A stretch of 64,000 nucleotides of DNA from Pseudidiomarina insulisalsae (lineage in GTDB: Bacteria > Pseudomonadota > Gammaproteobacteria > Enterobacterales > Alteromonadaceae). The position numbers and the translations under genes were made by a program. The notes under the pieces are model-generated. The model was not told the DNA's origin. It saw only the letters and a list, made by a program, of their open reading frames with translations, and searched no databases. The stretch spans positions 62,001-126,000 of the forward strand of contig NZ_PIPY01000002.1 in assembly GCF_003987065.1 (NCBI RefSeq), read 5' to 3'. Positions 34,676 through 38,295 of this stretch are shown piece by piece; position 1 is the stretch's first letter; each line of letters starts with the position of its first letter.

Positions 34676-35458
34676 ATGGTAGCTAAGGTTTGGTCGCAGG
34701 TCAGTGGTAGCGGAACGGATATTGTTGTACTCCATGGCTGGGGGTTGAATGCCAATATCTGGACCCCGGTGCTACCAGCACTGGAGGCGGTGGGCCGGGT
34801 GACCCGCATCGATTTACCCGGTTATGGCGAGTCCCCCTGGCCGCAAGAACTGCCACTTAACTTTGCGAATTTGTGCGATTTGACGCTGCAGGCCTTACCA
34901 GAGCGATGTCATCTGGTCGGCTGGTCGCTCGGCGGGCTGGTCGCCACCCAACTGGCGCTGCAGGCGCCGCAACGCTTTCATAGCCTGACCACGGTGGCGT
35001 CCTCACCTTATTTCCCCGCAGCTGCGCCTGACTGGCCCGGTATTGAACCGGCTATTCTGACGCAATTTGGCAAGCAACTAAGTAAGGACTTCCGGCGTAC
35101 CGTGGAGCGTTTTCTGGCGCTACAGTCGTTGGGCAGCCCCCATGCAAAGCAAGACGTCAAAATGATTAAAGAATGGCTGTTCAGCAAGCCAATGGCCGAA
35201 GTGAGCGTGCTGGATGCTGGTCTTGATATGCTGGCGAGTGTCGATTTACGCGCCGAATTAGCGCGTCTGAGCATGCCATTTTTACGCATTTACGGGCGCC
35301 TTGACGCCCTGGTACCGAGCAAAGTCGTGCCCCGGGTCGATGCACTCACGCCGCAAAGCGAGAGCTATATTGCGCCGCAATGTAGTCACGCGCCTTTTAT
35401 CAGTGATCCTGAGGCATTTATGCAGGCCCTGGCCAACTTTATTAGACGGGTTGATTAG
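34676..35458 (+). CDS. bioH: Pimeloyl-ACP methyl ester carboxylesterase
   Basis: Alpha/beta hydrolase that frees pimeloyl-ACP methyl ester in biotin synthesis. 260 aa. The catalytic triad is Ser84 (GWSLGG), Asp210 (GRLDALVP) and His238 (CSHAPF), and the oxyanion region is [11 protein letters not shown]. Context (divergent from comF, near nfuA) is as in E. coli. No other bio genes are in the window. Its end overlaps mutM by 4 bp, tail to tail. Confidence 0.93.
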
Positions 35459-36270
35459 CGCTGGCAGCGCTTGCAATAGACGGTACTGCGCTGACCTAAA
35501 CGGATCTCACTTAGCTCGGTTTTACAAACCATGCACTGCTTACCGCCACGACCATACACGTTCAAATGCTGTTTAAAGTAGCCAGGTTGTCCGTCAGCCT
35601 GAGTAAAGTCCTGCAAGGTGGTGCCGCCCTGCGCAATCGCTTCGGTCAGCGTCTCTTTGATAATCGGTACCAAGCGCTGATAGCGCGCCAGACTTACGTT
35701 ACCCGCCGCGCGTTTGGGATGAATGCCCGCTTTAAATAGCGCTTCGTTTGCGTAAATGTTACCCACTCCGACGACCACATGGTTGTCCATAATGAAGGTC
35801 TTAACGGCCTGTTGCTTGTTACGTGAACGTTCATATAAATAAGCGGCAGTAAAAGCGTCAGTCAGGGGCTCAGGACCCAGTTCAGCCAGCAACGGGTGCG
35901 CATCGCCAGGGTGATTCGGGCTATACAGAACGCAGCCAAAGCGACGCGGGTCGTTAAAACGTAAACACTGGCCATTGCTCAGTTGCAGGTCGACATGATC
36001 GTGTTTGACCACCAGACTGTCGCTGGGCACAATGCGCAGCTTGCCTGACATACCCAGATGGAGGATTAAGTAGCCCTTATCGGTATGTAAAATCAGATAT
36101 TTCGCCCGTCGTTCCACTTTAGCGATACGCGCCCCGGCAAGACTTTCAACCGACGCGGGCACCGGCCAGCGCAAGCGCCGATCACGCACCACGACGCGCG
36201 CAATTTGCTCACCTTCAAGGTGGGGCGCAATGCCCATGCGGCTGACTTCAACCTCGGGTAATTCTGGCAT
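35455..36270 (-). CDS. mutM: Formamidopyrimidine-DNA glycosylase
   Basis: Base-excision repair enzyme removing 8-oxoguanine and ring-opened purines and nicking the strand. 271 aa. The N terminus [11 protein letters not shown] supplies the catalytic Pro2 and Glu3. The C-terminal zinc finger has CMVC and [17 protein letters not shown] is the conserved DNA-contact strand. In E. coli mutM follows rpmG directly; here a 2OG oxygenase gene on the other strand separates them. Confidence 0.97.
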
Positions 36271-36280
36271 TTGAATTCTC

Positions 36281-36309
36281 TTGTATTTAAGCTAAGTGTT
36301 CATTATATT
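36281..36309 (+). promoter_or_regulatory. Promoter of the 2OG oxygenase gene
   Basis: TTGTAT (36281-36286), 17-bp spacer, TATATT (36304-36309). A small hairpin, CCGAA-AAA-TTCGG (36312-36324), lies at the expected transcript start. Confidence 0.65.
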
Positions 36310-36338
36310 CGCCGAAAAATTCGGAGCCCTGCTATACC

Positions 36339-37004
36339 ATGAGATCTGAGCCGCATACCGACGCAGCATTGCATGTTGACGACTTCGCCACAGAAGCGAT
36401 CGATCTCGAGCTGTTGGCCACTCAGGGTTATGTCATTGTACCGAACTTTCTCGCCCGCGCTCAATGTCAGCAGCTGTACGACTATGCTTTAGGCTTGCCG
36501 TCACAGGCGTGGTACCAGGCAGGCATTGGCCGTGCCGACAAATTTACCACCAATACCGCAGTGCGCCAGGACAAAATTCGTTGGTTACAGGCTGAACAGC
36601 CCTACGAAAATGCCTATCTGAAAATGATGGATCGGCTGCGGCTGGAGATAAACCGTAGCTTGTTTATGGGTCTGTTCGATTACGAATGTCACCTTGCCCA
36701 CTACCCGCCGGGTGCTTTTTATCGCAAGCATCTGGACGCCTTTAAAGGACGTAGCAACCGTATTCTGACCACGGTATTTTACCTGAATCCGCAATGGCAG
36801 GAAGCCGATGGCGGACAGCTGGTTATTTATGGCGAGCGCGGTGAAGTGCTGGAGACGGTACTACCTGAAGCAGGTAAGCTGGTGGTTTTTCTCAGTGACG
36901 TTTTTGTGCACGAGGTGCTTGCCGGCTTACGCGATCGTTACAGCATTACCGGCTGGTACCGGCTCAACGCCAGTATTGGCGGGCTGGTGGATCCCACCCA
37001 TTAA
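36339..37004 (+). CDS. 2-oxoglutarate/Fe(II)-dependent oxygenase, prolyl 4-hydroxylase-like
   Basis: Cytoplasmic dioxygenase of 221 aa. The iron triad is His131-x-Asp133 (YRKHLDAF) and His191 (FVHEV), and Arg200 (R-Y-SITGW) should bind 2-oxoglutarate. The FYLNP and DGGQLVIYG strands are typical of the prolyl hydroxylase fold. Bacterial relatives of this size hydroxylate elongation factor Tu (the PPHD enzyme of Pseudomonas); that substrate is possible here, and the gene sits next to rpmG-rpmB, but this is inference. It has its own promoter and terminator. Confidence 0.85.
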   Translation: MRSEPHTDAALHVDDFATEAIDLELLATQGYVIVPNFLARAQCQQLYDYALGLPSQAWYQAGIGRADKFTTNTAVRQDKIRWLQAEQPYENAYLKMMDRLRLEINRSLFMGLFDYECHLAHYPPGAFYRKHLDAFKGRSNRILTTVFYLNPQWQEADGGQLVIYGERGEVLETVLPEAGKLVVFLSDVFVHEVLAGLRDRYSITGWYRLNASIGGLVDPTH

Positions 37005-37029
37005 AAAACCCGGCCGGAGCCGGGTTTTT
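37004..37029. terminator. Bidirectional terminator between the 2OG oxygenase gene and rpmG
   Basis: AAAAACCCGGC (37004-37014) pairs with GCCGGGTTTTT (37019-37029) around a 4-base loop. The flanking A- and T-runs make it symmetrical, serving both convergent transcripts. Confidence 0.92.
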
Positions 37030-37053: not shown

Positions 37054-37209
37054 TTACTTAATTTTCGCTTCTTTAAACATGACATGCTTACGAACAACTG
37101 GATCGTACTTTTTGATTTCCATTTTTTCTGGCATGTTACGCTTGTTTTTGTCGGTAGTGTAGAAGAAACCAGTACCGGCAGAAGAAACTAGACGAATCTT
37201 ATCACGCAT
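37054..37209 (-). CDS. rpmG: 50S ribosomal protein L33
   Basis: Small basic protein of the large ribosomal subunit. Translating the minus strand from ATG 37209 gives 51 aa: [20 protein letters not shown], then a Lys/Arg/Asn-rich stretch, ending [11 protein letters not shown], the classical L33 pattern. This is the zinc-free form, without Cys pairs. It lies 11 bp after rpmB and is co-transcribed with it. Confidence 0.97.
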
Positions 37210-37220
37210 GGTTCAGCTCC

Positions 37221-37457
37221 TTACACTTTTTCGCCACGTGCGCGCAGGTCTGCGAGCACAGAGTCGATACCGTTTTTATCAATAATGCGCATACCTTTAG
37301 TAGAAATACGCAGCTTCACCCAACGCTTTTCTGATTCTACCCAGAAGCGGTGAGATTGTAGGTTCGGCAGGAAACGACGCTTGGTCGCATTGCGCGCGTG
37401 AGAACGGTTATTACCGGTAACCGGACGCTTTCCTGTAACTTGACATACTCGTGACAT
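37221..37457 (-). CDS. rpmB: 50S ribosomal protein L28
   Basis: Large-subunit ribosomal protein of 78 aa, starting [20 protein letters not shown] and with the conserved [20 protein letters not shown]. This is the Cys-poor form of the family. First gene of the rpmB-rpmG operon, behind a clear sigma-70 promoter with a leader of about 70 bases. Confidence 0.98.
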
Positions 37458-37617: not shown

Positions 37618-38295
37618 CTACAACAGCCCGCGTTCGGCAAATGAAACCGGCTTGCCGCTGCCGATCACAAAGTGATCCAGCAGCGCCACGTCGATCATGC
37701 CCAGGGCTTTTTTCAGCCGTTCGGTAACCCGTTGATCGGCCTGGCTGGGTTCTGCCACACCTGACGGGTGATTATGGGCCAGAATCACCGCCGCCGCATT
37801 GTGTTGCATCACCAGCTTTATGATTTCGCGCGGGTATACCGGCGCAGCGTTTATCGTACCGTGGAATAGCTCAACATATTTGAGCAGCCGGTGCTGACTA
37901 TCGAGCAATAACACCACAAACACTTCACGCTGCTGATGGCGGAGCTGCGCGGTCAGGTAGTCGCCCACCATTGACGGTTGCGTGAATCCCGCGTCACGTT
38001 GCAATTGCCAGGCCAGATAACGGCGTGAGATCTCCATCACCACTTGCAACTGCATAACCCGTGCCGGTCCCATACCCAACTGCTGTAATAAATCACTGGC
38101 GGGCGCCGCAAGTAATCCGCCAATCCCATCATAACAAGCCAGCAGGTCGCGGGCGTAGGTCACCACATCCTTGCCGCGTATGCCGGTGCCGAGCAAGATG
38201 GCCAGCAACTCCGCGTCACTTAGCGCGGTCACCCCCATCTCAGCCAGTTTTTCCCGTGGCCGCTCGCAACTGGGCCATTGTTTCACTGTCGCCAT
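37618..38295 (-). CDS. radC: RadC-family (JAB/MPN domain) protein
   Basis: 225 aa. A helix-hairpin-helix-like N-terminal region (ALSDAELLAILLGTGIRGKDV) precedes a JAMM metalloprotease-like domain with HNHPSG and the later acidic residue in EPSQAD. Once thought to be a recombination protein, RadC's actual role is not settled. Gene order radC-rpmB-rpmG is as in E. coli, and it is divergent from coaBC. Confidence 0.95.
   Translation of the reverse strand: MATVKQWPSCERPREKLAEMGVTALSDAELLAILLGTGIRGKDVVTYARDLLACYDGIGGLLAAPASDLLQQLGMGPARVMQLQVVMEISRRYLAWQLQRDAGFTQPSMVGDYLTAQLRHQQREVFVVLLLDSQHRLLKYVELFHGTINAAPVYPREIIKLVMQHNAAAVILAHNHPSGVAEPSQADQRVTERLKKALGMIDVALLDHFVIGSGKPVSFAERGLL

Follow-up and report, generated by a model that had tools for sequence, protein, structure and literature searches.

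The 64-kb stretch of DNA analysed here (hereafter, the window) contains, between mutM and rpmG, a complete gene of a 2-oxoglutarate (2OG)-Fe(II) oxygenase, whose product appears from its sequence to be an unexceptional bacterial homologue of the Pseudomonas EF-Tu prolyl hydroxylase (PPHD), that is, an enzyme of a kind already known. We consider it probable that this protein is a PPHD-type prolyl 4-hydroxylase (P4H) whose most likely target is the switch I proline of EF-Tu, that its gene is transcribed singly, and that a single insertion or relocation event in the Idiomarinaceae ancestor brought this gene to its place.

Table 1. Features of the oxygenase gene and its surroundings in the window
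Feature	Position	Strand	Basis
2OG-Fe(II) oxygenase, PPHD-type prolyl 4-hydroxylase, 221 aa	36339..37004	+	ORF, ATG...TAA
Promoter-like site TTGTAT-N17-TATATT of the oxygenase gene	36281..36309	+	sequence and genus-wide pattern
Bidirectional terminator-like hairpin of the oxygenase gene and rpmBG	~37003..37029	both	CCCGGC/GCCGGG, flanked by A and T runs
mutM, formamidopyrimidine-DNA glycosylase, divergent neighbour	35455..36270	-	ORF, synteny; name by recognition
rpmG, ribosomal protein bL33, convergent neighbour	37054..37209	-	ORF; E. coli annotation of match
rpmB, ribosomal protein bL28	37221..37457	-	ORF; E. coli annotation of match
radC	37618..38295	-	ORF; E. coli annotation of match

The oxygenase ORF is separated by 68 bp from the start of the divergent mutM and by 49 bp from the stop of the convergent rpmG, beyond which rpmB and then radC follow on the minus strand. 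The gene is thus located on the strand opposite to both mutM and rpmBG and does not belong to the rpmBG unit. An earlier note on this DNA, whose coordinates for the feature started with the promoter-like site, had described an oxygenase gene breaking the common rpmB-rpmG-mutM order, and on both points it was right: the reading frame is intact, and in all four loci read outside the genus (L069-L072) the order is the same with no oxygenase gene in between, the spacing of rpmG and mutM being 600-800 bp in three of them.

The same note ascribed to the gene its own promoter and terminator, and comparison within the genus agrees with this as far as sequence signals can. The pattern TTG...TATATT occurs upstream of the oxygenase gene in 24 of 25 loci of the genus (the window genome and 24 relatives; the exception is L021), compared with 1.8% of 5000 190-bp windows drawn at random from the same loci. 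An equivalent of the hairpin is present between the convergent stops in all 23 loci of the genus that have both flanks (counted by eye, with L022 and L023 omitted as incomplete), and its stem bases, also as judged by eye, change together among these loci (CCCGGC/GCCGGG, CCCAGC/GCTGGG, CCCGAC/GTCGGG). A scan of the region at a threshold of 9 of 12 listed neither of these two signals; it reported two promoter-like sites, about as many as in shuffled sequences, neither of them at the oxygenase gene. The search of the window against Rfam gave no match. We suppose that the oxygenase gene would be transcribed singly from this promoter and that its transcript would end at the hairpin, which could serve the rpmBG transcript alike.

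The assignment of the product to the 2OG-Fe(II) oxygenases is provided by a match to the Pfam family PF13640 (80.3 bits against a cut-off of 27), while the search against NCBIfam yielded no model above its cut-off. The intact His-Asp-His/Arg site ascribed to the protein is indeed there: the iron ligands H131, D133 and H191, the 2OG-binding R200 and the P4H-type Y128 and R141 are all present and do not vary in any row of the two alignments (26 and 39 rows). In the PHD2 row of the phmmer alignment Y128 and R141 correspond to Tyr310 and Arg322, whose places were counted from what we take to be the PHD2 numbering. These are the tyrosine and arginine common to P4Hs, according to the available text of PMC4396695. 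By analogy, Fe(II) held by the three ligands and 2-oxoglutarate anchored by R200 would activate O2.

Among proteins of solved structure, the closest to the window protein is PPHD. The best phmmer match against PDB sequences was 4iw3_A (E 3.4e-40, 141 bits), followed at a distance by Trichoplax PHD (59 bits) and human PHD2 (56 bits), all HIF prolyl hydroxylases having E-values of 7.2e-15 or weaker. In the reverse direction, the 152-aa piece of 4iw3 matched one gene of the window genome, with 50% identity over 148 aa (piece residues 4-151), and no second match was obtained in this genome at E-values up to 10. The AlphaFold model built from the 39-row alignment (mean pLDDT 87.8, pTM 0.85) led to the same protein: ranks 1-9 of the Foldseek search were all 4iw3 or 4j25, and in VIA-align 4iw3_A was superimposed with Z 28.0 and rmsd 1.8 over 197 aligned residues (41% identity), whereas the best protein other than PPHD, among the best 50 of 1000 chains, was human PHD2 with Z 23.6. 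No other solved structure among the matches listed is therefore as close to the oxygenase as 4IW3/4J25, either by sequence or by predicted fold. This is the structural comparison that the earlier note had recommended, and, on the predicted model, it bears out the note's view of this protein as a relative of enzymes that modify EF-Tu.

The finger loop of PPHD comprises A53-D70 (PMC6235002, in the part available), to which residues 61-78 of the window protein align at the same length and without a gap. The residues at the ends of this loop (A61, G64, R65, R76, D78) are invariant or conserved in at least 90% of the rows in the 26- and 39-row alignments. However, only 6 of the 18 loop residues are identical to those of PPHD, and hence the middle of the loop, which faces the substrate, is unlike that of PPHD.

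As to the substrate, the window genome encodes two EF-Tu copies scoring above the TIGR00485 cut-off, and the copy that was read carries the switch I target DNAPEEKARGIT, the proline of which the enzyme would most likely trans-4-hydroxylate, as P. putida PPHD does. On homology only, our best guess for the annotation of 36339-37004 would be an EF-Tu hydroxylase. Conservation of the target proline was considered as evidence of the substrate and rejected. The comparison covered 125 genomes with 129 loci; an EF-Tu match had been obtained in 153 genomes, own included, from which the own genome and the 89 listed with the best scores were used, while 8 further listed ones and those not listed were omitted. 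With the enzyme counted as present at E 1e-25 or better, this proline is invariant in 53 of 53 genomes having the enzyme and in 72 of 72 lacking it, and is therefore uninformative. The residue two positions before it, i.e., preceding Ala-Pro, varies in both sets alike, being other than N in 11 of the 53 genomes that have the enzyme and 15 of the 72 that lack it. Near a tuf gene outside the window (L073:1110-1145), short tandem repeats of the TTATTCG type were observed.

The earlier note proposed that the modification is sensitive to oxygen, a point in dispute even for PPHD, and any regulatory role of the enzyme is putative. The available text of PMC5701443 attributes oxygen sensing by Pseudomonas partly to PPHD and reports that the apparent Km of PPHD, compared with that of PHD2, is lower for O2 and higher for Fe(II); according to the part of PMC6235002 at hand, a role of PPHD in hypoxia sensing, if there is one, still awaits identification. 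In the accessible part of a review (PMC4682802), hydroxylation of Pseudomonas EF-Tu is stated to leave GTP hydrolysis and the global translation rate unchanged, and the Pseudomonas mutant to grow less in the presence of iron chelators. Our literature searches found nothing joining Idiomarina with prolyl hydroxylase, and nothing related on rpmG or mutM together with oxygenase or prolyl.

Three other explanations of the gene were weighed. The idea of a small-molecule 2OG oxygenase, closer similarity to which would have told against the proposal of the earlier note, can be connected with a weak, sub-threshold NCBIfam match to FlmC (28 bits, where the cut-off is 240), but the best 50 of 1877 Foldseek matches and the best 50 of 1000 VIA-align chains are all protein prolyl hydroxylases, and the P4H-type Tyr and Arg are in place, which makes this idea scarcely credible. 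An enzyme that has kept the PPHD-type fold and chemistry and acts on another protein, for instance a ribosomal one, is a better candidate, though in our opinion still an unlikely one. It accords with the unlike middle of the finger loop and with the fact that, in the available text of PMC4682802, PMC7864055, PMC5701443 and PMC6235002, the sole bacterial member whose substrate has been tested is the Pseudomonas enzyme; on the other side, the closest sequence and fold belong to an EF-Tu hydroxylase, and the genome does encode the target loop of EF-Tu. A particular case is bL33, whose N-M-P-E-K stretch is faintly like the N-A-P-E-E-K of switch I. It was rejected as a substrate, since M-P-E-K is found with or without the enzyme (without it in L061, genome G021, and in L072, genome G033), and the stretch reads M-P-G-K in L071 (G054), where the enzyme is present; in three of the 47 loci (L069, L070, L090) the L33 pattern used for this comparison gave no match. 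That the Idiomarinaceae enzyme has a second, ribosomal substrate (such as this stretch of bL33) and so marks both EF-Tu and the ribosome seems to us extremely improbable.

The remaining explanation concerns the position of the gene, which may be functional in itself, through local coupling to rpmG-rpmB expression by, e.g., antisense effects or the shared terminator. In favour of such coupling, all 17 Idiomarinaceae loci read (Pseudidiomarina, Idiomarina and Aliidiomarina) have the gene between mutM and rpmG, and the hairpin is conserved. However, the gene is on the opposite strand and has a promoter-like site of its own, and unrelated genes enter the interval: a cysNDC-like sulfate-assimilation set lies between the oxygenase gene and rpmG in two genomes of the same genus (G013, locus L319, and G001, locus L320), and a gene of a DUF418-like membrane protein separates them in four Aliidiomarina loci (L093-L096), both named by recognition. 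In 80 loci from outside the family (63 named ones and 17 of relatives beyond the genus), the oxygenase gene had neither mutM nor rpmG in its vicinity within the flanks covered, which extended up to 6 kb, were shorter in some loci and amounted to about 1.5 kb in five of the 17. Local coupling is, in view of this, very improbable. For the same reasons (a gene outside the rpmBG unit, a position seen only in Idiomarinaceae, other genes in the interval) nothing about function can be deduced from the position, and the proposal of the earlier note that placement next to ribosomal-protein genes suggests modification of the translation machinery found no support.

Some further features of these neighbourhoods were recorded. 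The mutM-rpmG interval seems to accept insertions, as the cysNDC-like set illustrates, and an ORF for a small membrane protein (by recognition) separates mutM from the oxygenase gene in several loci of Idiomarina and Aliidiomarina. In L090 and L097 (Aliidiomarina taiwanensis and A. celeris) coaBC and radC differ in order and orientation from those of the other Idiomarinaceae loci. In the remaining Gammaproteobacteria, the neighbours of the oxygenase gene vary by lineage. When the flanking ORFs of the 80 loci were grouped, 21 of these loci had DEAD-box helicases and 18 had ABC ATPases, some of these proteins being probably translation factors; these groups are loose, represent large superfamilies joined by single BLAST links, occur at varying distance and orientation and have no null comparison, so that the neighbourhood carries no weight either for or against a link to translation. 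In Marinobacterium and Nitrincola (L098-L103) a DbpA-like helicase gene adjoins the oxygenase gene or is near it, and in Methylophaga (e.g., L104, L105, L118, L122) a peptide-deformylase-like gene follows it (both by recognition). DbpA-like helicases and peptide deformylase are translation-related proteins.

The distribution of the gene points to its long residence in the family. Matches to the oxygenase at E 0.001 or better were found in 44 of 59 genomes, the own one included (weak ones in G034 and G037), and the gene is present in 24 of 25 other genomes of the genus. The PPHD piece matched 56 of 274 genomes of the class (own included), and in 47 of these the E-value was 1e-25 or better. Among named genomes, the nearest are those of Pseudidiomarina species (up to 85% identity), and the window itself therefore probably derives from Pseudidiomarina or a close relative within Idiomarinaceae. 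In the phylogenetic tree, the 18 Idiomarinaceae rows form one group with support 100/98, which makes a single origin at the mutM-rpmG locus the simplest reading; the gene has probably occupied this position since the ancestor of Idiomarinaceae, having arrived there by one insertion or relocation and being inherited thereafter. All bacterial rows are separated from the two PHDs at 100/100 in this tree, which includes the PHDs and PPHD as partial sequences; the composition of both PHD rows is odd. The fork holding P. putida PPHD is open, and strict orthology with it is therefore not proven.

The single genome of the genus without the gene is G021 (locus L061, also L321), where 97 bp separate mutM from rpmG and the hairpin is kept. 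Since the gene is otherwise general in Idiomarinaceae, its loss is the likely reading, and G021 is probably, as far as the locus can tell, a natural knock-out. The lack of the gene in one of 25 genomes of the genus means that the function of the oxygenase is dispensable. The tuf copies of G021 encode DKAPEE rather than DNAPEE; we rejected this as a sign of relaxed constraint, for a residue other than N occurs at this place in genomes with and without the enzyme.

Of the known systems, the closest to the window protein are P. putida PPHD (4IW3 with EF-Tu, and 4J25) and P. aeruginosa PA0310, with which it shares fold, size, the HxD...H site and the P4H Tyr and Arg. The likeness to PPHD includes the finger-loop length with the AGxGR...RxD frame and a switch I substrate loop available in the own genome; the differences are half of the residues over the region compared, the middle of the finger loop, and the place of the gene between mutM and rpmG. 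The HIF prolyl hydroxylases (human PHD2 and Trichoplax PHD) have the same fold and catalytic residues, but their identity to the window protein is about 24-29%, and they stand apart on a long branch of the tree. HIF-alpha is, to our knowledge, absent from bacteria. The prolyl 3-hydroxylases of uS12, OGFOD1 and Tpa1p, belong to the same 2OG oxygenase superfamily and have a target in translation, yet they matched at E 0.00074 only. They possess tandem domains, and Leu replaces the P4H Tyr (PMC4396695, available text), unlike the window protein, which is single-domain and retains the Tyr.

The finding is mainly a gain in annotation: a marine family with small genomes carries a PPHD-type gene at a fixed place. 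In addition, the presence and absence of this gene within one genus provide a pair of organisms that could help to show the purpose of EF-Tu hydroxylation.
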